A stretch of DNA of 48,870 nucleotides from Opitutales bacterium (GTDB taxonomy: Bacteria; Verrucomicrobiota; Verrucomicrobiia; Opitutales; Oceanipulchritudinaceae): NCBI GenBank assembly GCA_020831525.1, contig JAFIGH010000033.1:1-48870 (forward strand). Reading direction: 5' to 3'. Shown piece by piece: positions 1,786 to 44,978 of the stretch. The translations under genes and the position numbers were made by a program. The number at the start of each line of letters is the position of its first letter. Positions within the stretch are counted from its first letter, which is position 1. The notes under the pieces are model-generated. The model was not told the DNA's origin and did no database searches. It worked only from the letters and a program-made list of their open reading frames with translations.

Positions 1786-4188
1786 TCACCGTCTGTCGAC
1801 AGATCGCACATTAAAAGGAAATCGGATCCCTATCCGCGCTGCCGCCGGTTGACCGTCATCCTTCAATCCCGCCTCGAACTCCCAATTGGCCACGGCTTCC
1901 CTTACAGCATTCGCGAAGTCAGGATGCGGCGTGGAAATGATCTGAATGTCCTCTTCCCTCACAAGCCCATCCGGCCCGACAATGAAACGTGTCTCGACAG
2001 TGCCCGCCAGCCCGATGCGCAACATTGAGGGAGGATACATCGGTGCCGGTTGATGCACAGGACGCGGGGGCGAGCTGAGTTCGGCCGTCTCGAAAACCGT
2101 GACGTCAGCTTCAAACCGAATCGGCAACCGCGCGCGCACTCCCGGAACACCTTCGGGTAAGCCAGGAGGTTCGAAGCGCCAGAAACGCAAATAGTCGAGG
2201 ATCTTGTCCTCAAGTTCCGGAATGCCTCCACCCTCCGCAACGACTGGAAACCGTATCCTCCCCTCACCGTCAATGACGAGGTCCAAGATAACCGTGCGCC
2301 CGCCGTAGCGACGCTGCAACTCGTATGGATAGGCAACCATCGGCGTCGCCAAAGGGCGCAGCGGCGCATCCAAATCAGACGGCGCGGCCAGGCGAAGGCT
2401 CCGCCGCGCTTCGCCGGGGAGACCCCGCTCCACCATCACTTCCATAATCCGCGCCGCCCCATGATGCTCGGCCACCCCCCAGCCCGGAAAACCGCCGGAA
2501 AACTCGAAATCAGGAGCAAGGCATTGCGCCAACGTGATCTCAAACACCTCGGGGATGTCATAACGGAAGGCATCTTCCATCAAATCCAGCGCCGTCTCCT
2601 CCGTGAACTCGCACTCGGCCCCCGCCGCCACGAGTGTCTTCACCGCTTCGCGTTGCGCAAGGCGGGTCGCCAGCCACAGAATGTGCTCCCCTTGATGGTC
2701 GGTTGAATTCGGATCCGCTCCAGCCTTCAACAATGCGAGAACCCCGTTGACATTTCCCGCCGCCAATGCCGACGCCATCGGCGTCGCCCCGTTATCCGCG
2801 CGCGCCTCCGGTTCGATTCCCTGTTCCGCAAGCCATCCGACAAGCGGCGGATTCGAGGCCGCCGCAATGTGCATGAGCGTGAAGCCGCCAGCGAGATCCG
2901 CTTCCAGCGAGGCACCTTGCGCCACCAGATACTCCACCAGTTCCACGGATCCGTTCTCAGCGGCAATGACAACCGGATATTCGCCCGCGACCGGTTCCGA
3001 CACGCTTTGGCCCGTCCGCTCCACAAAGTAGCGCACGATCCCCAACCGGTCGTTCCGAAGGCGTGAGGCAAACACCCAATCGGCGTTCTCCCGCACAAAG
3101 CGGAAGCGCTGTCCGTGCTCGATGAACAAATCGGCGAGGTCGTCCCGCAACTCGTTGATCATCGCCAACGTCGGACAATTCCGCGCCAATCGTCCGCTTC
3201 CGGTGGTGCGGGCACCGTTCTCCATCAAAAGCTCCACTAACTCGGGCGGAGAACTACCCACCGCGATAAACAGCGGAATCGAATTCGTGCGGCTGCTCGC
3301 GTTCACCCGCGCCCGCCGGTCCAGTAGGATCCGCGCCGCTTCCACGTTGCCGCGGGAGGCCGCGTAATGCAGCGGCGTAAAGCGTTCGCTGTCCGTCGCG
3401 CGTGGATTCGCAGACTCACTGCGCAGCAACGTCATGGCCGCCTCGTTGGAAAACGTGGCGGCCGCGTGCACCGGCGACCAACCGTCCGGCCCGCCCGCGT
3501 TGGGGTCCGCCCCGGCGGCAAGCAGCACCGTCACCTCCTCGGAATCGTTACGCAGCAGCGCCCGGAGGAGGGGAGCGGCCTCCCCGTGCCGCGGGCTCGC
3601 GTCCACAAAACCTTCGCCCTTGCGGTAGAACCAAATCACCGGCATACCACGACCGAACGGCTGCGCCGGAGCGGACATCGAATGCAACGGCACCCCCGCG
3701 CGCTCTCCATCCGGATCTCTCCGCAACGGGACCACCTTCAGCACCGCCGACCCCTCCGCGTACAGGCCCGCCAAAGCGACAATCCCCCCCTCCGCTTCCT
3801 CGCCTGCCGCGAGTTCATCCACCCACGCCACATCGATCCGCGACCAGCCGCTCACCGTAGCCCGCGCCGCGTCCTCCTCGTCCGCCGGCCGCCCGCGCGG
3901 ACCCAGACTGAACGCCATCCGCGGCGGCAGGAACGCCTTCGCCAACAGTTCGTCCGACGACTCACCGAGTCGAAACACACCGCCCCGCGGCAACCGCTTC
4001 GACTCCCCGTCCACCTCGTTTACAGGCCTCGAGGCGTCGAAGTCGTGCACACTCCACTCCTGCCCGTCGAGTTCATAAGTCAGCCCCGGCCATGCGCCCT
4101 CCGCCCCCGCCGACCGCGAAAGCGCCAACAGCACCAGCCCCACGAAAAAGCACCTTCCCATATCCATTGCCCCCGACCCTAAGGCCAT
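1786..4188 (-). CDS. Exported ankyrin-repeat protein with two C-terminal TonB-like domains
   Basis: An 800-residue protein. It has a signal peptide (core FFVGLVLLALSRSAGA), then about 170 residues of unassigned sequence, ankyrin repeats over about residues 205-560 (recognisable cores such as TPLHYAASRGNVEAARILL and SPVHAAATFSNEAAMTLL), and two successive TonB C-terminal-type domains at about 610-695 and 705-798. The second opens with SPPRPVHQPAPMYPPSM. TonB C-terminal domains normally contact outer-membrane receptors, while ankyrin repeats bind proteins. A cleavable signal peptide rather than a long anchored helix makes a classical ExbB-coupled TonB unlikely. ATG codons at 4188, 4167 and 4161 are all possible; the 4188 start has AAGGAG only 2 nt upstream, whereas 4167 gives a more typical signal peptide. 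The TonB motif recurs in the protein at 17876-18616. Confidence 0.82.
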   Translation of the reverse strand: MALGSGAMDMGRCFFVGLVLLALSRSAGAEGAWPGLTYELDGQEWSVHDFDASRPVNEVDGESKRLPRGGVFRLGESSDELLAKAFLPPRMAFSLGPRGRPADEEDAARATVSGWSRIDVAWVDELAAGEEAEGGIVALAGLYAEGSAVLKVVPLRRDPDGERAGVPLHSMSAPAQPFGRGMPVIWFYRKGEGFVDASPRHGEAAPLLRALLRNDSEEVTVLLAAGADPNAGGPDGWSPVHAAATFSNEAAMTLLRSESANPRATDSERFTPLHYAASRGNVEAARILLDRRARVNASSRTNSIPLFIAVGSSPPELVELLMENGARTTGSGRLARNCPTLAMINELRDDLADLFIEHGQRFRFVRENADWVFASRLRNDRLGIVRYFVERTGQSVSEPVAGEYPVVIAAENGSVELVEYLVAQGASLEADLAGGFTLMHIAAASNPPLVGWLAEQGIEPEARADNGATPMASALAAGNVNGVLALLKAGADPNSTDHQGEHILWLATRLAQREAVKTLVAAGAECEFTEETALDLMEDAFRYDIPEVFEITLAQCLAPDFEFSGGFPGWGVAEHHGAARIMEVMVERGLPGEARRSLRLAAPSDLDAPLRPLATPMVAYPYELQRRYGGRTVILDLVIDGEGRIRFPVVAEGGGIPELEDKILDYLRFWRFEPPGLPEGVPGVRARLPIRFEADVTVFETAELSSPPRPVHQPAPMYPPSMLRIGLAGTVETRFIVGPDGLVREEDIQIISTPHPDFANAVREAVANWEFEAGLKDDGQPAAARIGIRFPFNVRSVDRR

Positions 4189-4385: not shown

Positions 4386-5138
4386 TCACCGGTCGAGAAT
4401 CCCACGGAGCCGTTCGCCCGCGCCGCCGGCGGCCTCTTCGATGGCTTCGGTTCCGCGCTCGCTCAAGTCGCGCCCGAGGTCACGGAGGTTGCCGCCCATG
4501 TCACCAAGGACGGAGCCGGAGTTGCGCAGGATTTCGCCGAGGACCAACTCGATTACGTCCTTCACCGGGATCCCGCCCTCGCCCGTCCCGATATCTTCCA
4601 GTTGGATCCGCGGCAGCGATGCATTGATCGTCTGACCCAACGCCGCACCGCGCAACTGACCGCCTTCAATGACCAACTCACGGACGATGACTTCGCGCGC
4701 GGCGCCCTGCCCTTCCTCCACATCCTCGGCGGGGGGCGAGTAGGCCTCGATATTGGCCATCAGCCGCCGCAGGTTGTTCCCCGCGCGCGTCTGTTCGATG
4801 AGAATATTGGGCGCATCGATGTAGAGTCTCTCGATGATAATCGTATCCGTAAGCAATGACCGCGGCGAGATACGTATGTCGATGGAATCCACGGAGATAA
4901 TGTAGTCCTCAGAAAAGCCCTCCGGATTGCCCACGCGGAGGCCATTGAGCGCGCCCGAGCCAGCAAATATCGAGAGACCGACAGTCTCCAGCTCCACGGT
5001 CGTGCCGGTCACTTCAGGCCCAATCGTCTCCACCGCGCGCTTGACGGCTGTGTTCAGCCACCCGCCGCCGAAGACGGCGAGGACAACGGCGAGAACAACG
5101 ATAAGGCCGACAACCGATAAGAGAAACTTTTTGAACAT
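4386..5138 (-). CDS. AsmA-like membrane-anchored protein
   Basis: A 250-residue protein with one N-terminal membrane segment (FLLSVVGLIVVLAVVLAVFG) followed by a periplasmic stretch with the AsmA-type strand pattern: VGLSIFAGSGALNGLRVGNP, then ISVDSIDIRISPRSLL and IIIERLYIDAPNILIE. AsmA-like proteins are linked to lipid transport and outer-membrane biogenesis; this is a short member. The C-terminus is glycine/glutamate-rich and probably helical. The frame extends upstream to a GTG at 5165, but the ATG at 5138 has a nearby GGAG and places the membrane segment at the N-terminus, so it is preferred. It is divergent from the receptor operon, with a 265-bp intergenic region between them. The family is fairly sure; the specific role is unknown. 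Confidence 0.75.
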   Translation of the reverse strand: MFKKFLLSVVGLIVVLAVVLAVFGGGWLNTAVKRAVETIGPEVTGTTVELETVGLSIFAGSGALNGLRVGNPEGFSEDYIISVDSIDIRISPRSLLTDTIIIERLYIDAPNILIEQTRAGNNLRRLMANIEAYSPPAEDVEEGQGAAREVIVRELVIEGGQLRGAALGQTINASLPRIQLEDIGTGEGGIPVKDVIELVLGEILRNSGSVLGDMGGNLRDLGRDLSERGTEAIEEAAGGAGERLRGILDR

Positions 5139-5230
5139 GCTCCGAGCAAATCGAACCTTGCGCACAATAGCGAACTCAAACCACGGGAATCGCCGTCCAT
5201 TCGTATCGAGGCAGCCGATCTGTCGGAATT

Positions 5231-5260
5231 TTGCTCAATCACGGCGTGATAAGGTGTATT
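5231..5260 (+). promoter_or_regulatory. Candidate promoter with palindromic operator for the receptor operon
   Basis: TTGCTC (5231-5236) and TGTATT (5255-5260) are separated by 18 bp and match sigma-70 -35 and -10 elements loosely. Between them lies ATCACGGCGTGAT (5238-5250), a perfect 6-bp inverted repeat around a central G. A dyad in the promoter spacer would suit a dimeric repressor. It sits 143 bp upstream of the first gene of the operon, in the divergent region shared with the AsmA-like gene. This is inference from sequence only; Verrucomicrobiota promoters are poorly defined. Confidence 0.3.
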
Positions 5261-5403
5261 CAACTCCGAACAAAAACGGTATTTTACATCTTGAGACGCC
5301 TTGGGGTTTCTTTCCGGAACGCAGTGCGCCGCGTGCCCTTCGGGGGCCGTGATCGTGCGTGTTCCGCAACCCTCAAACCCTCAATCCCCGAAAACCCCTG
5401 CCA

Positions 5404-8121
5404 ATGAAATCGCCCTCCCTCCGGCGCTCACGCGCCCCTTGGATGCTGCCGCTCCTTGCCGTCCTGCTCTCGACGGGCCTTCAGGCCGCCCCCCGAGTTC
5501 ACGACTTTCAAAACCTCCATCTCGGTCCTGCCGACGGACAAGGCGACTGGACCTATGCGGCAGGTGCGCCACTGCCGCAGGACGGCGTGTTGATCGCGCC
5601 CGGCGGTCTCTACTGGATCGGAGAGGACGACGGGATCCTCACCGGAGGCACCCAATACCTTCGCACCCGCGCCGGCCTCGACGGAAACGGGCGGATGAGC
5701 AACTGGTTGAGCCTCGGCGGGGCCGGATCGCCCGGGTCGGTGTATGTCCGCTTCCTGCTGCGGATGGACGAGCGCCCGTCAGGCATTTTCGGGCTTGAAG
5801 ACTACGAGATGTTTTTCGGTTTCGCGGCGGGAACGGGCGGACCTTGGGACGCCTACGCCGGACTGAAAATCCCGGCCACCGGCGACAACCGCACCGGCAC
5901 GCTGGAAACAACCGGCTCCGGCGGCCCGCACCCGAACGAGAAGCTGGTCCTCGGCGAAACGCTGCTTCTCGTCACCCGCTACGACGTCGACAGCGAGGGC
6001 GCGTTGACCGGAATGCATGTATGGGTGAATCCGGCGGCGGTGGACGCGGAATCGCCCGACCTCTCGGTGCCCTTCGATGAGCCGGGAGTTATCCTAAGCG
6101 AACTCGACCGCTTCAATATTTCAGGCCGCAACATGCCCATGGCCCTCGACAACCTTGTCTTCGCGGATGAGTGGGAGGAAGTCGTGCCGCCGCCCCACGA
6201 CGGGACGCCGCGACCGCCCGTCGTGCTTCTTCCGCCCGCCTCGCCCGAGGGCGAGATCGGTGAAATACTGGAACTTTCGCCCTTGGTATGGGATGAGCCC
6301 GGCAATCCGGTAACCGGATACCAATGGGTGGCAAACAACACAATCACCATTCCCGCCGACCTCGGCGGAACCGTCGATCCCCTCGTCTTCCAGGTGTGGA
6401 CCTCCACGGCGGCAAACAACCCGGTACGCCTCGCGGCGCAATCGCCGGAGCGGACCGGCGCGTTGCTCAGGGTCCTCGTGAGCAATGCCACGGGCACGAC
6501 GACCACGCCCAATGTGCGCATCCGCGAGACCCAGACCCCGGAGCCGCCGGAGATCACGCGGCAGCCGCGCGACACTTCATTTATGGAAGGGGACACCGTG
6601 CGGATTTCCGTGCAGGTTTTCAGCCTGATCGATCTCACCTACCAGTGGTTCTTCAATGATTCCCCGCTCCCCGGTGCGACGGACGCCACCCTCATTCTAC
6701 CCGGTGTGACCGAAGCCGACGCCGGAACCTACTACGTTGAGGTGACGAACGACCTCGGCACCGAACGCAGCGCCGACGCCGCCCTCACCTTTGACGACGG
6801 ATCTTTCCCGGCAGACTTCCGCGTGCTCCGCCTCGAACGTTCCGCGGAGCTGGGCGGGAATATCGCCGCCACCGGACAAGCGGACGATCAAACCGGCGGT
6901 GATCTCAGCCCCCACGATCCCGCCGAGGAGCCGCCGACGATCGCCTCCATACCGGTGGAGACATTCAACACCCGCATCGGGCAAGCATACGCCGAGGGAC
7001 GCGGCGGAGTCTTCGATTTCGCCTTCGACAAGGCCACGCTGCTATCCGGTCGTCCGCTGACACCGGAAGAAGAAGGCGCGGAACAGGTCGGTGCCATCAA
7101 AGGCCTGCGCCTCGATCTCGGTTTGTCCGAAATCGAAGTCGTACCCATCGTCCGCGACATGGGCGTTGAAGGGTTTGCCGGACGGGATACCCTCCTGCCA
7201 CCGAACTTTCTCGTGCCGACCGGTTTACTGCCCCGTTATCCACCCGAGGGCGGAGACCCCAACAGTGCAACCATTTCGAGACCCAACGAGGGCCCGCCCG
7301 ACTTCTACCACCCGGGCCACGACCTGGGCACGGCACTTCCGTCGTCGCCGGAATTCGCCCTTGCGGCGAGTACCCACCTGAAACTCGTTTTCGACCCGGC
7401 GGACAAAGTGGAGTTGGCGGGATTCGTATTCGTTAACCGCGACTACTTCCAAAGCCACCGCGAAACAAAAGCCTACCCCGACAAGCCCAATGTCCGCGCC
7501 GCAGCCCGCTTCAGCAAAGGCACGGATATCGTTACGCTCATTTCCACGGGAACAACGCGGCAGCCCGGCGGCGTCGGCTACAATACGTTCTTCGGTTTCG
7601 AAAGTCCGGGCGAAGGCTACTACCTTATCGATCTGGAGACCTGGGCATTGGGCAACAACTTCCGCTGCCACTTCTCCATCGACGACCTCGCTGTCGCCGT
7701 GGCCGGGGGCGGCGATGTTCCCGCCAGTCCCATGCAAACCTGGTTGACCGCCGCAGGCGTGCCTTCCGCGCAGACGGGACCGAACGACCGGCACGGCCCG
7801 CTCTCCCTCACAAACCTCGAAGCCTATGCGATGGGAATTCCGCCCTTCGAAAGCACGGCGGCCGACCTTCCCCGCACCGTGCGCGACGGTGCCGTTCCGG
7901 GTCATGTAACACTCCGCTACCGCCTCAACACCGCGGCGCAAGAGGTTGTTCTATCCATCGAACAGTCGGCGGACCTCGATACCGCCGGCTGGTACCCCGC
8001 CGAACCGCTCACCGACAACGTCCTTTCCGAGTCCGGCGAAATCCAGTGGCGCGAGGCTTCCTTCGCCGTGGAAGCCGGCGCCCCGGTTTTCCTCCGCGTC
8101 AAGGCGGAACTCGCGCAGTGA
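5404..8121 (+). CDS. Secreted LamG-like/Ig-like protein, first gene of the TonB-dependent receptor operon
   Basis: A 905-residue exported protein. Modules in order: signal peptide (core WMLPLLAVLLSTGLQA); a LamG/concanavalin-like region (about 30-265, ending ALDNLVFADEW); an immunoglobulin-like domain (about 380-463, with the typical YQWFFNDSPLPGATDATL and DAGTYYVEVTN); a domain at about 519-767 shared with the protein at 10822-13992 (starts near AEGRGGVFDF, ends FSIDDLAVAV); and a C-terminal module with NLEAYAMGIPPF, common in verrucomicrobial exported proteins. The frame opens at a GTG at 5359, but the ATG at 5404 gives a clean signal peptide. It ends 25 bp before the receptor gene. It may be a surface partner of that receptor, occupying the place SusD has in Bacteroidota, although it has no SusD similarity that I can see. 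Its ligand is unknown. Confidence 0.8.
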   Translation: MKSPSLRRSRAPWMLPLLAVLLSTGLQAAPRVHDFQNLHLGPADGQGDWTYAAGAPLPQDGVLIAPGGLYWIGEDDGILTGGTQYLRTRAGLDGNGRMSNWLSLGGAGSPGSVYVRFLLRMDERPSGIFGLEDYEMFFGFAAGTGGPWDAYAGLKIPATGDNRTGTLETTGSGGPHPNEKLVLGETLLLVTRYDVDSEGALTGMHVWVNPAAVDAESPDLSVPFDEPGVILSELDRFNISGRNMPMALDNLVFADEWEEVVPPPHDGTPRPPVVLLPPASPEGEIGEILELSPLVWDEPGNPVTGYQWVANNTITIPADLGGTVDPLVFQVWTSTAANNPVRLAAQSPERTGALLRVLVSNATGTTTTPNVRIRETQTPEPPEITRQPRDTSFMEGDTVRISVQVFSLIDLTYQWFFNDSPLPGATDATLILPGVTEADAGTYYVEVTNDLGTERSADAALTFDDGSFPADFRVLRLERSAELGGNIAATGQADDQTGGDLSPHDPAEEPPTIASIPVETFNTRIGQAYAEGRGGVFDFAFDKATLLSGRPLTPEEEGAEQVGAIKGLRLDLGLSEIEVVPIVRDMGVEGFAGRDTLLPPNFLVPTGLLPRYPPEGGDPNSATISRPNEGPPDFYHPGHDLGTALPSSPEFALAASTHLKLVFDPADKVELAGFVFVNRDYFQSHRETKAYPDKPNVRAAARFSKGTDIVTLISTGTTRQPGGVGYNTFFGFESPGEGYYLIDLETWALGNNFRCHFSIDDLAVAVAGGGDVPASPMQTWLTAAGVPSAQTGPNDRHGPLSLTNLEAYAMGIPPFESTAADLPRTVRDGAVPGHVTLRYRLNTAAQEVVLSIEQSADLDTAGWYPAEPLTDNVLSESGEIQWREASFAVEAGAPVFLRVKAELAQ

Positions 8122-8146
8122 ACGCAAACGCAGAACATACCCAACA

Positions 8147-10786
8147 ATGCCTCGACCCCTCATCAAGCAACTCTTCCTTGTCTTCGCCGCCGCACTTCCC
8201 GTCCTGCCACCCCTCGCCGGACAAGCCGACGACCCGCCGGATGAAGGCGTGCACATCCTCGACACACTCGTCGTGGACGCGCGGGACCAGCGCGGGTATG
8301 TTGCGTCGACGTCTATGTCCGGAACGCGCCTCGCACAGCTTGTGCGGGATCTTCCGATACCGATAGATATCATCACGGAGGATTTCATCCGCGACACCGG
8401 TGCGCTCACGGTGCGCGAGGCACTGCAGTATTCGGCGGGGCTTGAAGTAGCGGAAGATTTCGCCAACCTTGCACCCGGTCAGAGCACCCTCATGAGCCAG
8501 CAGGCCGGGGAAAATCCGTCGCCAACCGGAACGTCGTTCCGGCTGCGCGGGTTTGTCACGCAGGCGGTCCTTCGCAACGGGTTCCGGCGCGAGGGCAGTT
8601 CCGACACGATCAATGTCGTACAGGTGGATGTCGTGCGCGGCCCCAACGCGCTCCTTTACGGCATCGGCAACTTCGGCGGCGTGGTCAATTATGTCACGCG
8701 CCAGCCCTACGATGAATACGGCGCAAGTCTACGTGTCAGCGTGGGAAGCCACGCCTTCTACCGCGCACAGGTGGACGTTACGGGACCGATCACTGAGGAT
8801 CTCTATTTCCGCCTCCCCTTGATGTACCAAGACCGCGAAAACTGGTTTGACCACTTCCGCGAGCGCCGGCGCGGGATCGCACCTGTGATCACCTACAGAA
8901 TCGGGACCCGCACCCGCGTGCAACTGGAATTTGATTATTACGAAACCGAGCGCACGCTTCCGGAAAACCCGCTCAGCCAGAATCTCCGCTCGCAGGTGAC
9001 GCTCCCTTTCATTGACGGCACGCACCATCCGGTGAACCTCGGGTTCCTCGACTACCCGGACCGGTCGTTCCGCTACACAGGGCCCGACACTTACAACAAC
9101 CAAGAGGATCTCGGGGCACTCGCACAGGTGACCCATGCCTTCACCGATCAGCTCGCCCTGAATGTCGGCTACTATTGGAGCCGGACGCGCGTGCGTCAGT
9201 TGCACAGCGGCCTGAACCTCCGGCCCATTGCGGACATGCTCAGTCCGACCCTCACCGGCGAAACCAACCGCGCGCGCTATCCGTGGGCCTACGTTCGCGC
9301 GCACGAGCGTTACGACGAGTGGAGCGCGGAGGAGTTCTACGCCCTGCAATACAACTGGAGCCGCTCGGAACGCCGGCGCTGGCGCAACCAAGCGCGCGGC
9401 GAGCTGGTCTACAAACCGGAATTGTTCGGCCTCAACCACACCTTCATGAGCGGCTATACCTACGACCGCCTCGAGCAGTCGATCCTTCCATGGAGCCTGA
9501 AGGACCGCACCCGCGACCCCACCTCTTTGGAGACAAATGATTTCACCGGGTTGCAGGGTTCGCGTCCGCGTTACCAGTCGATCCACAACCGTGCGCCCAT
9601 TCGCTTCAGCCTCTTTCCCGGCGAGGAGTTTATGCTCACAGCCGATCCCGTGAAGAGTTTTATCGGCGAGGCGCACGGCGCCTACCTCATCTACCAGTCC
9701 GCCTTCTTCAACGAACGCCTGCGCACGGTCGGCGGCCTCCGCTACGACCGCTTCCAAATCCTCCGCGAGACGCGTTACAACGCGGCGGAGTCCAACGAAG
9801 CCGTCGGCGACCTCAGCCTCATCGGTCGCAAGAAACCCTTCAAGACGCGCCAGAATCCCACCTCCCAGTGGAATTACTCCCTCGGCGTTTCCCTCACCGC
9901 GACGGACGCCCTCTCGGTCTTCGCCCTCACGGCGAGCGCGCTGGATCCCGAAACGACCGGCGGCCAGCGCACTCCCGAGGGATTCGTCGCCGATCCGCAG
10001 AGCGGCCAAAGCTACGAACTCGGGATTAAAGCAGATTGGCTGGAGGGTAAGATCTCCGGCTCCTTCTCCATCTACCGCATCAACCGTGAAAATGTGGCCG
10101 TCTCTCCCCATCCGGGCACCCGGGCCGACTCCGGCGAGCGCATCCTTCCGCCCTCCGGTATCCACAATCCCGGATCGACCGCCTTCGACCCCGATTGGAT
10201 TGCCTCCGGGCGCGACGCCCCCGGCAGCAGCGCCCTGCGTGAGGACCGTTCGGAAGGAATCGATACGCAGATCTTTCTCATCGGTCTCGTACCGAATTTT
10301 GAAACAATTCTCAGTTTCAGCTACAACCGATACTCCATCCGCGACGCCGTTTTCTTTCTCTACGAGGGCAAACAGGACGGAGAGTTTGTCTTCGAGCGCG
10401 TGAAGGCGCGCGCCTTCAACGAGGAAACCGGCACGAGCCTCCCGTGGGACGACTCGCGCCTCAACAACGACACACCGAAATATTCCTTCCGCATCTGGAA
10501 CAAATACACCTTCCGCGACAACGCGCTCGACGGATTCAACATCGCCGTCGGGGTACGCTGGTCGGACCGGCGCGAAGCCTCTTTCGGTTTTGCCGATAAC
10601 CCCTCTTACAAGATCATCCCCGACCGCACCTCGGTCGACCTCGCCTTCGGCTACGCAATCAACGTGCGTGACCTCGAAATCGATCTGCGCGTCAACGTCT
10701 ACAACCTCCTCGACGACGACAAAGTCTACGGCTACGTCCACACCGAACCCCGCAACTGGCGCATGTCCGCCTCGGTCCGGTTCTGA
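8147..10786 (+). CDS. TonB-dependent outer-membrane receptor (FhuA/FpvA-type plug and barrel)
   Basis: An 879-residue receptor. The signal peptide is LFLVFAAALPVLPPLAGQA. The plug domain spans about residues 45-185, with DLPIPIDIITEDFIRDTGAL, RLRGF and the plug signature VDVVRGPNALLYGIGNFGG. The rest is a 22-strand-type beta barrel ending in the expected C-terminal phenylalanine (SASVRF). There is a TonB-box-like stretch near the N-terminus (HILDTLVVDA) and no STN signalling domain. The closest family is the siderophore-type receptors, but in Opitutae-like bacteria this subfamily is expanded and is not reliably iron-specific. The frame is open upstream from 7946 inside the preceding gene; the ATG at 8147 is chosen because it begins the signal peptide. 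It lies between two secreted proteins that share a domain, with gaps of 25 and 35 bp, so one transcript is very likely. Confidence 0.93.
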   Translation: MPRPLIKQLFLVFAAALPVLPPLAGQADDPPDEGVHILDTLVVDARDQRGYVASTSMSGTRLAQLVRDLPIPIDIITEDFIRDTGALTVREALQYSAGLEVAEDFANLAPGQSTLMSQQAGENPSPTGTSFRLRGFVTQAVLRNGFRREGSSDTINVVQVDVVRGPNALLYGIGNFGGVVNYVTRQPYDEYGASLRVSVGSHAFYRAQVDVTGPITEDLYFRLPLMYQDRENWFDHFRERRRGIAPVITYRIGTRTRVQLEFDYYETERTLPENPLSQNLRSQVTLPFIDGTHHPVNLGFLDYPDRSFRYTGPDTYNNQEDLGALAQVTHAFTDQLALNVGYYWSRTRVRQLHSGLNLRPIADMLSPTLTGETNRARYPWAYVRAHERYDEWSAEEFYALQYNWSRSERRRWRNQARGELVYKPELFGLNHTFMSGYTYDRLEQSILPWSLKDRTRDPTSLETNDFTGLQGSRPRYQSIHNRAPIRFSLFPGEEFMLTADPVKSFIGEAHGAYLIYQSAFFNERLRTVGGLRYDRFQILRETRYNAAESNEAVGDLSLIGRKKPFKTRQNPTSQWNYSLGVSLTATDALSVFALTASALDPETTGGQRTPEGFVADPQSGQSYELGIKADWLEGKISGSFSIYRINRENVAVSPHPGTRADSGERILPPSGIHNPGSTAFDPDWIASGRDAPGSSALREDRSEGIDTQIFLIGLVPNFETILSFSYNRYSIRDAVFFLYEGKQDGEFVFERVKARAFNEETGTSLPWDDSRLNNDTPKYSFRIWNKYTFRDNALDGFNIAVGVRWSDRREASFGFADNPSYKIIPDRTSVDLAFGYAINVRDLEIDLRVNVYNLLDDDKVYGYVHTEPRNWRMSASVRF

Positions 10787-10821
10787 AGCGCCGTCCACCC
10801 GCAACATTCACTTCCGCCGCC

Positions 10822-13800
10822 ATGCTCTCAAGATTGACACCCGCCTTTCTTCCGGCCCTGCTCGTCTCCGCGGTGCTCGCCGGACAGTCCGCCGACACTT
10901 CCAACTTAGTGCGCGAGTCCGCCACCTTTCTGACCACCGGAGGCATCGCCGAGGGGAACAACCCCATCAACATCTTCGCCACAGAGGGCGGCGACTCTGT
11001 CACCGGTATCCCCTTCGACGAATTCATTGAAATCTTCAACACGGCGCGTGCCGAGGGACGGGGCGGAGTCATCGATTTTGATAATCCGGTATACGGCGAT
11101 CCCATTCTCGACTACGACCGCACGGGAGTGCGCGCATTCATTCAGGCACAAGTCCGCGGACAAAGCTTCGACTCGCAGGCCGAGGCACAGGCCGCCATCG
11201 AAGCAGCGCGCTCGCTCGCCTACGACAGCGGCGTAGTCGACCGCTCGGCGCGCGGCCCGGTGATCAACCGCCTCGACCCCTCCCTCGATGACCCTTCGCC
11301 CGGCGCTCCGGGCGAGGATATCCTCTTCGACAAGACCATCGGCCTCTTTGGCCACGCAGGCGAGCGCCGTCTCGTCCTGCGGCGCGGCCCGCAACACTAT
11401 ATGGAGGGCGATCTCGCCTCGCGCGAAGCGCCCGCCTCCGAGAACCTGCAGACTGTCAACGACAACTACTTCACCCACGTAGCACGCTCCACTTATGGCG
11501 ACGGGGGACGCCCCGGTCCCCTGCCGGTGTCCCTTCCGTTCTCGCGCAACGGCGGCATGACGGATCTTCTCATCGATCCGCGCGACAATGTGACCGCCGT
11601 CGGATTCGTTCTCCTAAGCGCCGGAAATTTTCAATACTGGCAGGGGCTCGGCGCACTGCCGGACAACACGGAAAACAAGCGCGTGCTCGTGGAGTTTTCA
11701 GACGGCTCAACGGACCTGCTCACATCGACCACGCTCGACTCCAGCGGCGGCGGCGACACGTTCTTCGGCATCCGCGCCCCGGAAGGCACAAGCATTGTCC
11801 GCCTCAAAATGCGCGTAATCGGCCGCAACTGGCGCACCCGCACCTTTCTCGACGACTTCGCGTTTGTCACGGAGCCCTCGGCACCGTTTATTGCCAGCGC
11901 GCCGGAGGTCCGCGGATCGGCGGGCGCCCCCTTCTATCACCGCCTGCTGACAGCGCAGGAGCCCGAAGAAGTCACACTTGAGGGACTCCCCGCCGGTCTC
12001 GCGTTTGACGCGGACACCGGGCTGATCTCGGGAATCCCCGCCGAAACCGGAGACTATGCCGTCGCCGTCACGCTGACGAACGAGGTGGGTACAACCGAGG
12101 AGGTGATCGACTTTCACATCGGACCGTCCGTGGACGGAGAGCAGGTTCCCCGCATCCTGAGCGTTCCGGAGATCGCGGTCACCGTCGGCCGCGAGCTTGC
12201 CCCCGCGCCCGTCGTCACGTCTCTCGACGACGCAGTCCTGCCCGGCGAACTCAACTACTTCACCCTTGTCTTCCGACTGGGCGACGACGGCACGCGCACC
12301 CTCCTCCCCCTCGAAGCAACGGGGCTGGGCATCGCGGCGGGCGTGTTCTCCGGCACACCGGACCAGCCCGCCCAAGTCGGCACCTATGAGATCGAGGTCT
12401 TCGTCACGAACGACCACGGCGGCGACCGTGCCGCCACGCTCCTCAACATTTTCCCGGTCGTCCCCGGCCCGAACTTCGCGGGCGACGAGGCGACCGACCT
12501 GATGTGGCGCGACAACGCCTCCGGCCGCGTCTACACCCTCAACGCCCAGGGCAACTTTCTCGACGCCGAAGGCGCCTTCGGGATGCGCCCGCAATGGGTC
12601 CCGCGCGACGCCGGACTGACCGTTGAAACGTCAACCTTTCTCGGCACAGGCGATCTCGACGGCAACAACCACACCGACATCGTCGCCCGCACACCCGGCA
12701 CAGGGCACATCGACTTCCGTTATTTCCATGCCGGGGACACCGCAGCGCAGACACACCGCGTCGACGAATTGAGCGGCGGTTGGGAGGTCCTCATGGCGGG
12801 CGACATGCGGGGCGACGGCCACCTGAGCTTTTTGTGGCACCGTCCGGCGACGCACGACTACGACATCTGGCACATGGTCGACCGCGATTTGCGGTGGTCA
12901 GGGATACTTTTCGCCGACGGTATTGCGCGCGAATTCGTTCTCGATGGTGACTTCGACGGCGACGGCACACGGGACCTCCTCTTCCGGCGGTCGCCGGGCG
13001 TCTACGAACTGGTCAACATACGCATCCTCACCGGAACGGGCCTCGTTGACTACACGTCGGAGACCTTCTCTATGCCGTCCCCCGACTGGAAGCCGCACAT
13101 GGCGGCGGATCTCACGGGCAACGGCGCCGACGACCTGTTGTGGAAAAACCATTACTCCGGGGAAGTGACCGCGTGGATTATGTCGGGAGCGGTCGTGCCT
13201 GCGGACGCCCGCGCGTCGGCAGGGGAGAACAACGACAGCGATGCCCCCGCCGACGCGCTTCCCGGCATCACCGTCCTACCGTTCGGAACCCGTTTCGAGG
13301 TCCTCGCCGCGCTCGACGTCGACGAAGACCAGCGCAACGACCTCATCCTCCAGCACCGCGAGACCCGTACGCTCCACCTGATGCTCATGGACGGTCCCGC
13401 GCCCAAGGCGCCGCTCATCACCCTCGATATCGACGGAGAGCACCTTGAGATTGTCGCGGCGGGCGACTACAATGCGGACAAGCGGGAAGACCTCCTCGTC
13501 CGCAATACCGCCACAGGCGAGGTGCGGTTCAAACTCATGGGGCCGTCGGGCGTTGCGGAGAGTCACAAACTCGGTGTCTTCGGCGACAACATCAAGTTCA
13601 TCACACCGCGCATCCTCTCGAGCAACCTCACGCCGCCGACGGGCCGCGACGCGCCCGTGCCACCGTGGACGCAGGCCACGCCGCTCGGCGACCGCTTCTT
13701 CCACCTCGAGGGCTTCGGCACCTTTTACGATCCTCCGGGAGGCGGCTGGATCTACCATGAAGACCACGGCATCATCGGTGTCGCCGGGGACAGCCCGGAG

Positions 13801-13992
13801 AGCATTTGGCTGATCGACTATGCCCTCGGATGGTTCTGGACCAATACCAGTATCTACCCGTGGATGTATTACCCGAATCCCATCCAGACCACATGGATCT
13901 ACTACGCGCGCGGCACGAAAAACCCCCGCTGGCTCTACTTCCACGCTTTCGCCGAGTGGATCACGGACGAAGAACTACTTGAGTTTCTCTGA
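10822..13992 (+). CDS. Secreted protein with shared domain, putative Ig domains, VCBS-like repeats and aromatic C-terminal module
   Basis: A 1056-residue exported protein. It has a signal peptide (FLPALLVSAVLAGQSA), a domain at about 72-351 homologous to residues 519-767 of the protein at 5404-8121 (FNTARAEGRGGVIDFD near the start, TFFGIRAPEG and FLDDFAFVT near the end), and two putative-Ig (He_PIG-like) domains at about 354-433 and 443-552. Five VCBS/FG-GAP-like repeats follow at about 553-930, with calcium-loop patterns GDLDGNNHTD, GDFDGDGTRD, ADLTGNGADD, LDVDEDQRND and GDYNADKRED. The C-terminal ~110 residues are rich in Trp, Tyr and Gly (GGWIYHEDHG, ALGWFWTN, TTWIYYARG). It starts 35 bp after the receptor and ends 23 bp before the protease. 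The architecture suggests a calcium-stabilised surface adhesin or receptor partner; the ligand is unknown. Confidence 0.82.
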   Translation: MLSRLTPAFLPALLVSAVLAGQSADTSNLVRESATFLTTGGIAEGNNPINIFATEGGDSVTGIPFDEFIEIFNTARAEGRGGVIDFDNPVYGDPILDYDRTGVRAFIQAQVRGQSFDSQAEAQAAIEAARSLAYDSGVVDRSARGPVINRLDPSLDDPSPGAPGEDILFDKTIGLFGHAGERRLVLRRGPQHYMEGDLASREAPASENLQTVNDNYFTHVARSTYGDGGRPGPLPVSLPFSRNGGMTDLLIDPRDNVTAVGFVLLSAGNFQYWQGLGALPDNTENKRVLVEFSDGSTDLLTSTTLDSSGGGDTFFGIRAPEGTSIVRLKMRVIGRNWRTRTFLDDFAFVTEPSAPFIASAPEVRGSAGAPFYHRLLTAQEPEEVTLEGLPAGLAFDADTGLISGIPAETGDYAVAVTLTNEVGTTEEVIDFHIGPSVDGEQVPRILSVPEIAVTVGRELAPAPVVTSLDDAVLPGELNYFTLVFRLGDDGTRTLLPLEATGLGIAAGVFSGTPDQPAQVGTYEIEVFVTNDHGGDRAATLLNIFPVVPGPNFAGDEATDLMWRDNASGRVYTLNAQGNFLDAEGAFGMRPQWVPRDAGLTVETSTFLGTGDLDGNNHTDIVARTPGTGHIDFRYFHAGDTAAQTHRVDELSGGWEVLMAGDMRGDGHLSFLWHRPATHDYDIWHMVDRDLRWSGILFADGIAREFVLDGDFDGDGTRDLLFRRSPGVYELVNIRILTGTGLVDYTSETFSMPSPDWKPHMAADLTGNGADDLLWKNHYSGEVTAWIMSGAVVPADARASAGENNDSDAPADALPGITVLPFGTRFEVLAALDVDEDQRNDLILQHRETRTLHLMLMDGPAPKAPLITLDIDGEHLEIVAAGDYNADKREDLLVRNTATGEVRFKLMGPSGVAESHKLGVFGDNIKFITPRILSSNLTPPTGRDAPVPPWTQATPLGDRFFHLEGFGTFYDPPGGGWIYHEDHGIIGVAGDSPESIWLIDYALGWFWTNTSIYPWMYYPNPIQTTWIYYARGTKNPRWLYFHAFAEWITDEELLEFL

Positions 13993-14015
13993 GGGGTCGG
14001 TTGTTCTCCGCGGCA

Positions 14016-15881
14016 ATGAAGTTACGTCGATTTCCACGCCTGTTTCTTGCCCTCGTATGCATCTCCGCTACTGCCGCGGCAGAGCAACTGCAGGACAACG
14101 AACGCATTGTTATCGAGCGACTGGACGACCTGCCCCGCCTCGCCTACCCGGCGGAGATGCCCTTGGAAGAGTGGCTGGAGGATCGCGACGCCCTCCTCGA
14201 CCTCGCCCGGCGGGTGGAGACCGACATGCGCGAACGCCTCGAACGCTTCGACATCCGCGATGCCTCCACCCTGCGCGCCACGCACAACACCCTGCGCACA
14301 ATCGCCTACCTCCGCGGAGACCACGATGCGGCCCTGCGCCATATTGAAACGATCCGGGAGTTGCAGGAGAAGCCCGGCGACCGCCTCACAAACGGGCTTC
14401 TGCTCGAAGCCGTCATCGAGGCGGAGCGGCGCGGCGAAGCGTTCACCGATGTCTACGCCGCCAAACTCGCCGACCTGCCGTGGTCCGTTGTCAACGAAAG
14501 CATCCTAGACCTCCGCGCCGGGCTCCAGACGATGGGCGAAGGGCTCTACCGCGGGGCGCTGCGCTCGCAGATGCAGCCGGTCGTCGACCAGTCCGGCGAA
14601 CTCAGTCTCGGCATCGCCACGTCCCTCATTAGCTTCCGCTACATGTTCGACGCCATCCTGCCGCGGCGCGACGACGCCGTGGAGGTGCTCACGGAATACA
14701 TCGAGGCCAACCGCGAGGACAAGCCCGACATCTGGGCGGAGCGTTCCGTCGACCTCACGGACCGCGACGACCTCACCCCGGTCATCGTCGCGGTGTGGGA
14801 CAGCGGGCTCGACCCGGAAGTCTTCGAACCCATGGGCAATCTCTGGCGCAATCCGGACGAAGCGCACGACGGCACCGACACCTCGGGCAACGGATGGGTG
14901 GACGACGTCCACGGCATCGGCTGGGACAAAGACTACCGCCGCGAAGCCGGCGAACTCATGCCCCTCACCGAGGAGGAACGCGCCCGCTATCCGGAGAGCG
15001 TCGCGCTCACGAAGGGCTTCACCGATCTCCAGGCGGGCGTCGACAGCCCCGAGGCGCAGCTCGTGCGCGAACGCATGTCCGGTCTCGAGCCCGAGGCCTA
15101 CGAAGAATTCGTCGAAAACCTCAGTCTCTTCGGCTCCTACGTGCACGGCACGCACGTCGCGGGCATCGCGGCGGAGGGCAATCCCGCCATCCGCCTGCTC
15201 AACGCGCGCATCACTTTCGGCCACAAACTCCTCCCCGAAAAGCCGACCCTCGAACTCGCCGTGCGCTCCGCCCGCGCCACCCGCGATGCCGTTGCCTACT
15301 TCCGTGAAAACGGCGTGCGCGTCGTCAACATGAGCTGGGGCGGCACCCAGGCGGGCTACGAATACGCCCTCCAGGCCAACGGCGTGGGCGACGATGCCGA
15401 AATGCGCGCGGAAATGGCGCGCGTCCTCTTCGGCATCGGCTACCGCGCGCTCGTCGAAGCCATGGAAGAAGCCGAAGACATCCTCTTCATCCCCGCCGCC
15501 GGCAACAGCGACGACGACGTCGATTTCACCCAGGTCATCCCCTCTTCCATCGACCTGCCCAACGTCCTCGTCGTCGGCGCCGTCGACCAAGCGGGCGACG
15601 AAACCAGCTTCACCAGCCACGGCCGCAACGTCGCCGTGCACGCCAACGGCCTTGCCGTCGAGAGCTGGTTCCCCGGCGGCGAACGCGTCGCTATCTCCGG
15701 CACCTCCATGTCCGCGCCCAACGTCGCCAACCTCGCCGCCAAGCTCCTCGCCGTCGACCCGTCCCTCACCCCCGTCGAAGTCCGCGAGATCATCGTCTCC
15801 ACCGCCGAACGCACCGAAGACGGCCGCCGCAACCTCATCCACCCCCGCCGCGCCATGGAGGCACTCGAAGCCCGGCGGTGA
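14016..15881 (+). CDS. Subtilisin-family (S8) serine protease, exported
   Basis: A 621-residue protease with the full catalytic triad in canonical motifs: D262 in VAVWDSGLD, H377 in HGTHVAG and S564 in SGTSMSAPN. The signal peptide is RLFLALVCISATAAA. Residues 25-255 form a long N-terminal region, probably a helical prodomain. The distance from Asp to His is 115 residues, longer than in simple subtilisins, because of an acidic insertion (about 300-365). The frame begins at a TTG at 14001, but the ATG at 14016 is preferred. It is the last gene of the receptor operon, 23 bp after the preceding stop, which suggests that proteolysis is part of the operon's job, either releasing a peptide or protein substrate or maturing the surface partners. 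Confidence 0.92.
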   Translation: MKLRRFPRLFLALVCISATAAAEQLQDNERIVIERLDDLPRLAYPAEMPLEEWLEDRDALLDLARRVETDMRERLERFDIRDASTLRATHNTLRTIAYLRGDHDAALRHIETIRELQEKPGDRLTNGLLLEAVIEAERRGEAFTDVYAAKLADLPWSVVNESILDLRAGLQTMGEGLYRGALRSQMQPVVDQSGELSLGIATSLISFRYMFDAILPRRDDAVEVLTEYIEANREDKPDIWAERSVDLTDRDDLTPVIVAVWDSGLDPEVFEPMGNLWRNPDEAHDGTDTSGNGWVDDVHGIGWDKDYRREAGELMPLTEEERARYPESVALTKGFTDLQAGVDSPEAQLVRERMSGLEPEAYEEFVENLSLFGSYVHGTHVAGIAAEGNPAIRLLNARITFGHKLLPEKPTLELAVRSARATRDAVAYFRENGVRVVNMSWGGTQAGYEYALQANGVGDDAEMRAEMARVLFGIGYRALVEAMEEAEDILFIPAAGNSDDDVDFTQVIPSSIDLPNVLVVGAVDQAGDETSFTSHGRNVAVHANGLAVESWFPGGERVAISGTSMSAPNVANLAAKLLAVDPSLTPVEVREIIVSTAERTEDGRRNLIHPRRAMEALEARR

Positions 15882-15943
15882 TTCTTCACCGCCTTCGCGA
15901 CGCAAGGCCCGATCCCGCCGGTCCAAAGCCTCAACGGCGTCGG

Positions 15944-16732
15944 CTACTCTGCGCCCCGCTCCCGCGCGGCTTCGACGAGGGCGTGGAAGAGGCGTTGCTG
16001 GCGGCGCGACTGGGGGAGGTATTCCGGGTGCCACTGGATGCCGACGGCGAAGGGATGGTCGGCGATCTCGACGCCCTGCGCGATTCCGTTCTTCTCGCGG
16101 GCGACGACACGCACCCCCTCGCCCAGCCGGTTGACGGCTTGGTTGTGCAGACTGTTCACAAGCGCCTCCTCCCCGCCGAGGACGGCGGCAAGCCGGCTGT
16201 CCGGCTCGAGGAGCACCGGCTTGCGCGGAAAGACGGTATCCACTTTTGGTGACTCCGTGTAGAACGTCCCGATGTCCTGGTGGAGGTCGCCGCCGCGTAC
16301 GACGTTCATCAGCTGCGCGCCGCGGCAGATGCCGAGCACCGGCACACCCCGGCGCAGGGCGTCGTCGAGGAGGCGCCGCTCCAGTGCGTCGCGTCCCTCG
16401 TCGACACCGGCGCGGTGGCCGAGGCTGAAGAGCTTGCGCGAGAAAAAGATGGCCAGCCCCCAGAAGACGACGGTCCACCGCGAGCGGCGGCGTTCGCGGC
16501 GCGCGGCCTCGCGCAGGGCCTCTATGGTCACGCCGCCGTAGAGGTTCGGGTCGACATCCGCCCCGCCTCCGATCACCACCGCGTCAAAGGGCGGCACCCG
16601 GTGCGCCTTCCGCGGCCGCGCGCGCACCGCCCGCCCGCCCGCCCGCCAAACCGCCAGCCGCGTGAAAAACCACGCAATGTATCCGCCCCGGTCCGGACCC
16701 GTGACGAGAACCCTCGGCCGGCGCCCCTTCAT
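15944..16732 (-). CDS. Gamma-glutamyl hydrolase/glutamine amidotransferase-like protein (peptidase C26, PuuD-like)
   Basis: A 262-residue class I glutamine-amidotransferase-fold hydrolase. The nucleophile is C136 in GICRGAQLMN, and the His-Glu pair is H235 and E237 in GIQWHPEYL, so the triad is complete. Members hydrolyse gamma-glutamyl amide bonds, as PuuD does with gamma-glutamyl-GABA. The N-terminal GGGADVDPNLYGG also fits the family. An insertion of about 35 basic and hydrophobic residues (about 72-115, including TVVFWGLAIFFSRKLFSLG) is unusual and may be a membrane-associated hairpin. The ORF extends upstream to 16894, but the ATG at 16732 overlaps the stop of the amidoligase gene as ATGA, indicating translational coupling. 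The pair probably makes and breaks the same kind of amide bond. Confidence 0.85.
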   Translation of the reverse strand: MKGRRPRVLVTGPDRGGYIAWFFTRLAVWRAGGRAVRARPRKAHRVPPFDAVVIGGGADVDPNLYGGVTIEALREAARRERRRSRWTVVFWGLAIFFSRKLFSLGHRAGVDEGRDALERRLLDDALRRGVPVLGICRGAQLMNVVRGGDLHQDIGTFYTESPKVDTVFPRKPVLLEPDSRLAAVLGGEEALVNSLHNQAVNRLGEGVRVVAREKNGIAQGVEIADHPFAVGIQWHPEYLPQSRRQQRLFHALVEAARERGAE

Positions 16733-17748
16733 GCAAACCACTCCCGGATCTTCGCCGCAATCCGCCCGGCGACCACCTGCGCCGGATGGTCGAGCCAGTG
16801 CAGCCACGACTCCGCGAGGTGGGCCATCCGCTCCTTGTCGGCGGCCACGCGTTCGACCACGACCCAGCGGTTCCACTCCGAAGCAAGGGTCCACGCCGGA
16901 TCGTTGAGCGAGCAGTTGGGCAGCCGGTAGTGGTAGGCGGGACGCGGCGACACAAGCTTGGGTTCAAACCCTTCAAAGACCACGTCCTCCCGCAGGTGCG
17001 CGAAGAGCGGCAGCATGTCGAGAGGCCGGTTGCGCGTCGGGTTGTGCCGCAGGTAGTCCCGGATGAGCGTGTCGAGGTCCGGCGCGTAGTCCGGCGCGAG
17101 GACAAGCCGCGCGTAGGCGCGCGGAAACGGGTCGATAAAGGGCGTCAACCGGCGCGACAGATCGACCTCCAGCTTCTCCTTCAACCAGTCGTAGAGAATG
17201 AGGAACGCGCGCAGGATATCGCGGATATCTGCGGCCTCGAAGGACGGCGCCTCCGGATTGAAGTGTGTCCCGAAGGCATGAAAGACGGAGGCCCGCGTGT
17301 CCTTCGCGGCGGAGGCGGCGAGGGCGGCGCGCAGCCGCTCCAGCTCAGGCAACCGCCCGAGGGGCAGCGGCGGGGCGACAATCTCCATGGGCACGATATG
17401 CCGCGCCGAGCGCGCCACAAAATCCTCCACCGACGAAAAGGTCTCCCCTTTCTCCACGCCCACCTTGCCGAGGTAGCGCTCCAGTTTGCCGTCCTTGAGG
17501 AGCGACGCGTCCAGCTCGATAGCGAAGTCGCCGAACTCCGCGAGCGAAGTGCCGCATACCTTTCCGCTCCACACGTCCTTTGTCTCCAGCCGCCCGCCGT
17601 AGACACCCGTGATAATCTCCGCGATCCCGGCCATGTCCAGGCCCGCGAACTCCAGTTCCACGCCCACCACGCGCTCGCCCCCGCCGGGAGCGGTCGTCAC
17701 CGGCGGCTTCCAGAATACCGGGGATTGCGCACTCGGACTCAGAACCAT
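16729..17748 (-). CDS. Amidoligase-family (COOH-NH2 ligase) enzyme
   Basis: A 339-residue protein matching the putative amidoligase family related to glutamine synthetase-fold and gamma-glutamylcysteine ligases. The motif VVGVELEFAGLDM holds the metal-binding glutamates; FAIELDASL and the later MEIVAPPLP give the next conserved acidic and E-hydrophobic-P blocks; HAFGTHFNPE has a conserved histidine pair. Such enzymes are predicted to form an amide bond between a carboxylate and an amine using ATP. It overlaps the C26 hydrolase by 4 bp (ATGA), a pairing consistent with a peptide- or polyamine-conjugate pathway. The frame extends to 17889, but that would run into the divergent gene starting at 17876; the ATG at 17748 leaves a 127-bp divergent promoter region and begins just before the conserved domain. 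The substrate is unknown. Confidence 0.75.
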   Translation of the reverse strand: MVLSPSAQSPVFWKPPVTTAPGGGERVVGVELEFAGLDMAGIAEIITGVYGGRLETKDVWSGKVCGTSLAEFGDFAIELDASLLKDGKLERYLGKVGVEKGETFSSVEDFVARSARHIVPMEIVAPPLPLGRLPELERLRAALAASAAKDTRASVFHAFGTHFNPEAPSFEAADIRDILRAFLILYDWLKEKLEVDLSRRLTPFIDPFPRAYARLVLAPDYAPDLDTLIRDYLRHNPTRNRPLDMLPLFAHLREDVVFEGFEPKLVSPRPAYHYRLPNCSLNDPAWTLASEWNRWVVVERVAADKERMAHLAESWLHWLDHPAQVVAGRIAAKIREWFA

Positions 17749-17875
17749 CGGCGCGGACAGTAGCACGGATTGTCCGCCGATGGCAAACATCGGCTTTGCG
17801 AACCGAGAAGTGGCACGAAATTCCGTTGACCCGATTACAAAACCAACAAGCATAAAGAAGATACCAACGCCCGCC

Positions 17876-18616
17876 ATGTACCACTCCAAACCGAAGAAAG
17901 CGACCTATCCGAACACAGTCCGTTTCTTCCTACGCTGGCTGGTCATGTGCTTCATTGCGTTTTCGACAAATGGTATGAGCGCCTCGGTCGCAGCAATCCA
18001 TAGCGCCTCTGAACTGCCCGAACTCCCATGGTCCGGCGTGTATGTCGATTTCGGCGACTGGATCTTCCACAATCGGCATGGCTGGCAGTACTGGCCCGCC
18101 CAAGCGACCGAGGAAGGTCACTTCTACGATTTCGGCATCGGCGCCTGGGGATGGAGCACTCCCGAAGCATGGCCTGCGGTCTACTTGCATGAACCGATCT
18201 CCGAATGGTTCGTCGACAAAGCGCCGACGAGCGGCCAGCGCCGGTTCTTTCACCCGCGGTCGGGGTCGTTCGTCTCAGAAGAATCGCTTCGGACGGTTTG
18301 GAACATCCGCGAGTTATCCATCCCGCCTCGTCCTGTCTATCAGCCTGCCCCCGTTTACCCGCCCGAAATGCGGTTCAAGGGCATCTCCGGCGAGGTCACT
18401 CTCGAATTTGTTGTGACATCGGAAGGAACTGTTCGAGACATAACAGTTGTCGATGCATCTCGCGACGAATTCATCGACCCTACCATCGACGCCGTCGGAC
18501 AATGGTGGTTTCTTCCGGGAACGGTAGGCGGGGTGGAAGTCAATACTCGCGTGCGCATTCGCATCCCCTTCGTCATCGACTCTGAACCGGAACCGGATCC
18601 GCATCCGCCGAACTAA
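17876..18616 (+). CDS. Exported aromatic-rich protein with one TonB-like C-terminal domain
   Basis: A 246-residue protein. The N-terminal hydrophobic segment (FFLRWLVMCFIAFSTNGMSA) is a signal peptide or anchor. Residues about 45-135 are rich in Trp, Tyr and Phe (GDWIFHNRHGWQYW, IGAWGWSTPEAWPAVYL) and resemble the aromatic module at the C-terminus of the VCBS protein. A TonB-C-type domain follows at about 145-236, opening IPPRPVYQPAPVYPPEM, which is closely similar to the second TonB-like domain of the ankyrin protein at 1786-4188. The tail is acidic and proline-rich. An uncleaved N-terminal helix would make it a short TonB, a cleaved one a free periplasmic protein. It is divergent from the amidoligase gene, and the subtilase starts 106 bp downstream. 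Start chosen: the ATG at 17876. Confidence 0.75.
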   Translation: MYHSKPKKATYPNTVRFFLRWLVMCFIAFSTNGMSASVAAIHSASELPELPWSGVYVDFGDWIFHNRHGWQYWPAQATEEGHFYDFGIGAWGWSTPEAWPAVYLHEPISEWFVDKAPTSGQRRFFHPRSGSFVSEESLRTVWNIRELSIPPRPVYQPAPVYPPEMRFKGISGEVTLEFVVTSEGTVRDITVVDASRDEFIDPTIDAVGQWWFLPGTVGGVEVNTRVRIRIPFVIDSEPEPDPHPPN

Positions 18617-44866: not shown

Positions 44867-44978
44867 GCGACGGAAGCAACCGAACCGCGTTCGCCTCTGC
44901 AAGCAAATCAGCCGACATTCCAATACCGTGTCGTGTGACCCTCAATAGCGCTCATTCTTCAGATTCGGACTACCGTTT

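Follow-up and report, generated by a model that had tools for sequence, protein, structure and literature searches.

A candidate SusD-independent TonB-dependent importer with two secreted partner proteins in an Opitutales bacterium

How polymers pass across the outer membrane of Verrucomicrobiota is a question raised by reports, in the parts of the literature cited here, that SusCD is absent from certain polysaccharide degraders of this phylum. Five Verrucomicrobiota strains are described there as lacking SusCD while each has a TonB system, with SusCD-free clusters that combine TonB components and CAZymes (PMC11980603). Verrucomicrobiota MAGs without SusCD are likewise described, and outer-membrane transporters other than SusCD were suggested for closer study (PMC8857213, in the part cited). 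A locus that bears on this question lies in the window, the 48,870-nucleotide stretch of DNA analysed here. Four plus-strand genes encode a secreted 905-aa protein (G1, 5404..8121; ORF, Pfam and model), an 879-aa TonB-dependent receptor with a Plug domain (G2, hereafter TBDR, 8147..10786; Pfam, NCBIfam and PDB relatives), a secreted 1056-aa protein (G3, 10822..13992; ORF, Pfam and model) and a secreted 621-aa subtilase (G4, 14016..15881; Pfam Peptidase_S8 and motifs). The first-pass annotation had described four same-strand ORFs with gaps of 25, 35 and 23 bp, in which G1 and G3 form a secreted pair with a common domain flanking the receptor; coordinates and strand were confirmed, and the pair was recovered from the ORFs and a pairwise match. 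A single transcript for the four genes is compatible with this layout, though unproven by gaps and a consensus scan. In that scan (4900-16900), no terminator-like site was found on the plus strand, and the single promoter-like match (chance expectation 1.5) lies at 13445-13473. Since it sits inside G3, the subtilase may have its own transcription start.

Other genes surround the unit. Upstream and on the opposite strand, 1786-4188 encodes many ankyrin repeats with TonB C-terminal stretches at the end. Just downstream of the subtilase, also on the minus strand, an Amidoligase_2 gene adjoins a peptidase C26/GATase gene (15944-17877), and a second, larger subtilase on the plus strand (18723-22811) carries an MBG domain together with PKD-like matches that do not reach the cut-off. 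Among the 22 window proteins put through Pfam, a subset of the window ORFs, no glycoside hydrolase or lyase family was matched; glycosyltransferases were matched at 28-40 kb.

The sole Pfam match of the TBDR is Plug, for which the genome holds 27 matches, 26 of them over cut-off. No SusC/RagA-type model was found for the receptor in Pfam or among the 25 of 26 NCBIfam matches listed. Its best NCBIfam match is the siderophore subfamily TIGR01783, and receptors for siderophores or metallophores come first among its PDB relatives, from which it could be argued that the TBDR transports iron or another small chelate and that G1 and G3 are unrelated surface proteins on the same transcript. However, the TIGR01783 score (140.8 bits) is under the curated cut-off of 223.5, the PDB matches cover mostly the N-terminal third (residues 37-267 in the best one), and sister and distant relatives of the locus are linked to GH26, GH43 and sugar-regulator genes, as detailed below; we consider this explanation quite improbable.

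The statement that neither partner looks like SusD was borne out: no SusD Pfam match was obtained in G1 or G3, and a genome-wide search with one SusD model (SusD_RagB, PF07980) gave 0 matches, with a positive control in Bacteroides ihuae. By eye, the SusD-type lipoprotein Cys is also absent from both proteins. The unit resembles the SusCD importers of Bacteroidota in that a TBDR gene adjoins genes for large secreted partners, and resembles SusCD/PUL systems in that a relative of glycoside hydrolases and a regulator of sugar type are encoded next to its sister copies. However, there is no SusD match in the genome and no SusC/RagA model among the TBDR matches listed, and G1 and G3 are multi-domain, mostly beta in their models and without the lipoprotein Cys. 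Judged by these sequence characters (SusD, SusC-type model, lipoprotein partner), the unit is outside the SusCD class.

G1 consists of an N-terminal concanavalin A (ConA)-like part, an Ig domain matched by Pfam, the shared domain and a C-terminal beta domain. Its start is hydrophobic and signal-like and has no lipobox Cys; there is one Cys in the whole protein and 0 within the first 45 residues (by eye). Overall confidence in the AlphaFold model of G1 is low (mean pLDDT 49, 8-row alignment), and residues 1-103 have pLDDT <50. Within it, residues 25-287 (5476..6264, plus strand) are predicted to adopt a ConA-like fold, aligning with the globular domain of calreticulin when low-confidence stretches are left in (3pow, Z 13.2, 203 aligned, rmsd 4.6; 3pos, Z 13.1, 201 aligned, rmsd 4.2), and residues 376-466 match Ig domains in structure comparison. 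The calreticulin-type ConA-like fold is of the same fold class as LamG. The "LamG" originally assigned to G1 does not stand as a Pfam match, but a ConA-like fold is predicted for the N-terminal part.

G3 carries the shared domain, an Ig part (He_PIG), a VCBS/FG-GAP propeller and a W/Y-rich C-terminal domain; its earlier description as an Ig/VCBS protein is supported by Pfam matches to He_PIG and FG-GAP. It contains 0 Cys and has a hydrophobic signal-like start (by eye). The model is again of low overall confidence (mean pLDDT 61, 8-row alignment). Residues 548-929 (12463..13608, plus strand) are predicted to form a propeller closest to Psathyrella velutina-type (PVL) lectins: the best matches of this predicted model are 5mb4 and 4tqm (Z 25.1, 332/333 aligned, rmsd 3.1), mushroom lectins of the PVL type take the first six places (Z 24.5-25.1, 331-333 residues, rmsd 3.1), and the next non-PVL match falls to Z 16.3. 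The VCBS superfamily is described, in the part of the source cited, as including PVL lectins, as connected to integrin-like propellers and as also containing non-lectins (PMC8023676). Because such propellers include non-lectins, the predicted fold of G3 suggests, and falls short of proving, sugar binding. Beyond G1 25-287 and 376-466 and G3 548-929, the structure comparisons barely probe the two models.

The domain common to G1 (6796..7743, plus strand; profile A1, E 2e-120, this profile containing the same sequence) and G3 (10861..11898, plus strand; profile and pairwise match) is real, with 37% identity over 104 aa (pairwise E 7e-11) and a score of 62.0 bits vs at most 26.9 bits for 500 shuffled sequences, 380 of which gave any score. 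It had been put at ~250 residues, but the profile gives ~310, and the two copies resemble each other only weakly outside their 104-residue core (26% across the whole of alignment A1). In neither protein does it have a Pfam match over cut-off or an NCBIfam match, its profile found nothing better than E 0.1 among PDB sequences, and it is modelled poorly in both AlphaFold models. In an even draw of 383 genomes of the phylum, with at most five candidates scored per genome, 10 genomes matched, two of them from the host family. The eight outside the family matched only partially (51-94 profile positions, E 5e-8 to 9e-5), so the full domain is treated here as restricted to the family, within the limits of this draw. 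Within the family, it was found in 5 of 17 genomes.

Shared-domain proteins also occur away from the unit. Two stand-alone proteins are encoded in the same genome (L036:5814-6791 on contig C151 and L037:5473-6423 on contig C68), neither contig having a Plug match; a PEP-CTERM match below cut-off was obtained for L037, and the tail of L036 is similar by eye. On contig C43 of genome G000, mechanically called ORFs on one strand (~28000-50500; L134, L038) form a series that starts with a reprolysin-like metalloprotease with a W-rich end, a TBDR, a W-rich protein and a second TBDR, and finishes with two overlapping W-rich ORFs followed by a 1699-aa protein that has a G1-like N-terminus and carries the shared domain twice. 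Genome G006 (contig C255, L144, 1392-6624) has a TBDR adjoining a divergent protein, whose end is like that of the partner X described below, and a weak shared-domain protein, possibly as a further variant of the receptor/partner arrangement.

The C-terminal W/Y-rich domain of G3 (13660..13977, plus strand) has ~104 positions and 53 matches in the genome, three of them in the window (13660-13977, 18020-18286 and 44970-45149) and 50 elsewhere; none of the scanned proteins showed a Pfam match for it over cut-off. It ends at most 25 residues from the frame end in 15 of 17 placed matches, most of these loci having been chosen for the domain, and is possibly a surface-sorting or anchoring module. 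A general role as a mark of TBDR partners did not hold up, only 10 of the 53 matches lying within 4 kb of a TBDR and the profile being partly built from those. One of the window matches belongs to a 335-aa protein (17609-18616, plus strand), which combines the domain (~140-228) with a TonB C-terminal domain (246-322) and is the second TonB protein of unusual build close to the unit.

It could also be proposed that G1 and G3, with their Ig, VCBS-propeller and W-rich parts, serve in adhesion or as scaffolds of the cell envelope and fix the cell to algal or mat polysaccharide, the receptor being merely co-expressed and no physical partner. Foldseek searches with both models are dominated by Ig domains and their top matches are cell-adhesion Ig proteins, 43 of the 53 W/Y-rich matches have no TBDR within 4 kb, and the L036 and L037 proteins sit on contigs without a Plug match. 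However, we consider an adhesion role unlikely in view of the strict linkage to a single receptor clade (8/8), with conserved order, and because the shared domain was not found at the 42 more distant TBDR loci.

This linkage was established by a TBDR alignment scan of genome contigs, which gave 49 loci in records that are MAGs under Opitutales, Puniceicoccaceae or Verrucomicrobia; the family may correspond to T3Sed10-336/Verruconatronumaceae, a lineage of soda lakes (PMC13274419, in the part cited). Close loci were defined by a TBDR at least 46% identical to that of the window, one locus being counted per genome copy (n=8: the window, L029, L081, L082, L083, L084, L085+L098 and L086); L085 and L098 lie on two contigs of one genome and were joined by inference. 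G3 is immediately downstream of the TBDR in 8/8 close loci (split over two frames in L084), and G1 is upstream in 6/8, missing at L083 and L084. A third partner, X, is present in 4/8 and is placed before G1 in L086. One of the close loci, L029, is a second unit in the same genome on another contig, with G1, TBDR and G3 60%, 58% and 52% identical to those of the window. There, a further secreted protein, X (617 aa), separates G1 from the TBDR, and the subtilase has no match; the L029 ORF at 346-1446 has no Pfam family and only ankyrin-like chance matches. At the 42 other TBDR loci (26-41% identity, several on short contigs), the shared-domain profile found nothing, the single tblastn match with G1 and G3 was an Ig stretch to G1 (L100), and the W/Y-rich domain gave one weak match (L088). 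The expectation that the shared domain co-occurs with the receptor clade was therefore upheld (G3 8/8, G1 6/8, 0/42 distant loci). Trees of the TBDR, of G3 and of G1 are compatible in their splits, the window and L081 standing apart from the L029/L082/L085/L086 type; some forks of the G1 tree are unsettled, and several branches are long. Because they split compatibly, receptor and partners look as though they were duplicated and inherited as a block. In these trees, the window type and the GH26-linked type are sisters, and L083 and L084, without a GH26 relative, branch outside.

A clue to the substrate comes from the sister copies. A GH26 relative adjoins the unit at 4/8 close loci (L029, L082, L098 and L086), including the paralogous locus of the same genome. 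Its naming rests on PDB sequence relatives, the best being AlXyn26A (7xjr; E 1.6e-65 for L029, 6.1e-65 for L086); no Pfam family was found for the proteins of L029 and L097, and Pfam GH26 is barely over cut-off for that of L107. In L086, two Glu residues are aligned with AlXyn26A, namely Glu 243, the residue altered in 7xs3, and the Glu upstream of it; we take these to be nucleophile and acid/base. Divergent to the GH26 relative at L029, L082 and L098 (three of the four linked loci, 3/8 overall) is a regulator with Peripla_BP_3 and AraC HTH domains, which we take to be XylR-like; none was found at L086. The source cited describes AlXyn26A, a member of GH26, as active on mixed-linkage xylan and on beta-1,3-xylo-oligosaccharides as well (PMC12706835). 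Among known enzymes, the GH26 mixed-linkage/beta-1,3-xylanases (AlXyn26A, Xyl4) are the closest counterpart of the gene beside the paralogous unit, its best PDB relative being AlXyn26A. Unlike these xylanases, the linked copies at the four loci have no evident signal peptide at their start (by eye), which would fit import before cleavage; the L097 copy has a signal-like start (by eye). The GH26 relative occurs in 5/17 family genomes, the same five that carry the shared domain, an overlap of limited weight because these genomes are related and represent 3/9 genera. In G005, the GH26 relative and the unit are on different contigs, and the genes along its GH26 contig (L142) add nothing clear. A GH26 relative is also present, without the shared domain, in G042 and G043, which do not belong to the family.

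GH26 and GH43 linkage could be counted independently at the 42 distant TBDR loci, which had been gathered by TBDR similarity alone. Their flanks contain a GH26 relative in 7, a GH43 beta-xylosidase in 9, either in 10 and neither in 32. In six loci of Opitutales, including Pelagicoccus mobilis (L093, L096, L097, L099, L107 and L112), a TBDR is accompanied by matches to GH43 xylosidase, the GH26 relative, a LacI-type regulator and a sugar transporter, with the order TBDR, GH43, GH26, PhyH and sugar MFS gene in L107; by gene content, this stretch looks like a xylan locus. Most of the GH26-linked distant receptors fall into a single nested clade; this clade and the additional L110 are separate from the clade of the unit, and the idea that the unit descends from such receptors did not hold up. 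Because they are not its direct ancestors, the GH26 linkage probably arose more than once, and a link to xylan turns up at least twice.

The first-pass annotation had inferred an alternative lid/partner system that captures a polymer or peptide after extracellular proteolysis. RagAB is the comparison case for peptide uptake by a TBDR, and a similar scheme here would have the subtilase digest external protein, G1 and G3 capture the fragments and the TBDR import the peptides. G4 lies just 23 bp downstream of G3, has a signal-like start and contains the Asp, His and Ser motifs (DSG at D262, HGT at H377, GTSMS at 562), and an orthologue occupies the same place in L081 with 91% identity. However, the window and L081 are the only close loci with a subtilase (2/8), four others having the GH26 relative in its stead, and the promoter-like match inside G3 would permit separate transcription of G4. 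As a core member of the unit, the subtilase was rejected on this distribution. The GH26 relative at 4/8 loci and the XylR-like regulator at three of those four, vs the subtilase at 2/8, therefore indicate polysaccharide, and we regard peptide uptake as improbable. The more general suggestion of an alternative partner system fared better, in that the partners travel with the receptor clade, the unit is SusD-free and lectin-type folds are predicted, albeit in low-confidence models; peptide as its cargo is the part that was not sustained. In the broad sense of PUL, the receptor of the paralogous loci lies beside a relative of a glycan-cutting enzyme and a sugar-type regulator, and that of the window copy has no adjoining glycan-cutting enzyme among the 22 window proteins. 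The substrate proposed for the window copy is accordingly borrowed from its sister copies, no glycoside hydrolase or lyase being present among those proteins.

On balance, we lean towards the unit being a SusD-independent TonB-dependent oligosaccharide importer with two surface capture partners, G1 and G3. This reading draws on gene order, conservation, the linkage of sister copies to the GH26 relative and regulator, and the missing SusD match; the folds are predictions, capture is deduced from these folds and the gene neighbourhood, and glycan binding, surface location, docking and lid movement are proposals. The TBDR would import the oligosaccharide, G1 (through its ConA-like domain) and G3 (through its VCBS/PVL-type propeller) would bind glycan and hold it at the receptor mouth, and the shared domain would likely serve as a common docking or ligand module. 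Sister copies would handle xylan with beta-1,3 or mixed linkages. The copy in the window would be a duplicate in which G1-TBDR-G3 is retained and a subtilase stands in place of xylanase, regulator and X. Because no glycoside hydrolase or lyase was found among the 22 window proteins and a subtilase is present, its substrate may have shifted and could be a glycan, a glycoprotein or peptides.

Among known systems, the nearest working analogue may be BtuBG of Bacteroides, in which BtuG is a seven-bladed beta-propeller lid on the vitamin B12 receptor BtuB (PMC10404256, in the part cited). As in BtuBG, a predicted propeller partner is encoded beside the TBDR, here in 8/8 close loci. However, BtuG is a lipoprotein that binds B12, and G3 has no Cys and adds the shared, Ig and W-rich domains. 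Among the best 50 structure matches of the G3 propeller, the nearest are VCBS/PVL lectins and BtuG is not listed; a relation to BtuG below that rank may still exist. The nearest ecological analogue would be the SusCD-free TonB clusters of Verrucomicrobiota, which likewise have a TonB system without SusCD (PMC11980603; PMC8857213). In the parts of these sources cited, the receptor partners are unnamed, whereas a conserved two-protein set is found here. No description of a G1/TBDR/G3 partner set was found in open-licence PMC titles or abstract starts. More tentatively, and with doubt prevailing, the unit could represent a new importer class of this Opitutales lineage, in which the SusD lid is replaced by a secreted VCBS-propeller G3 working with a ConA-lectin G1, both docked to the receptor through an undescribed shared domain, and in which the unit is duplicated as a block and re-targeted by an accessory enzyme swap (xylanase for protease). 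Altogether, the locus provides a concrete, conserved uptake candidate, whose partner proteins can be named and whose substrate class is open to testing, and the unit may be one route for sugar-polymer uptake without a SusC/SusD pair in such bacteria.
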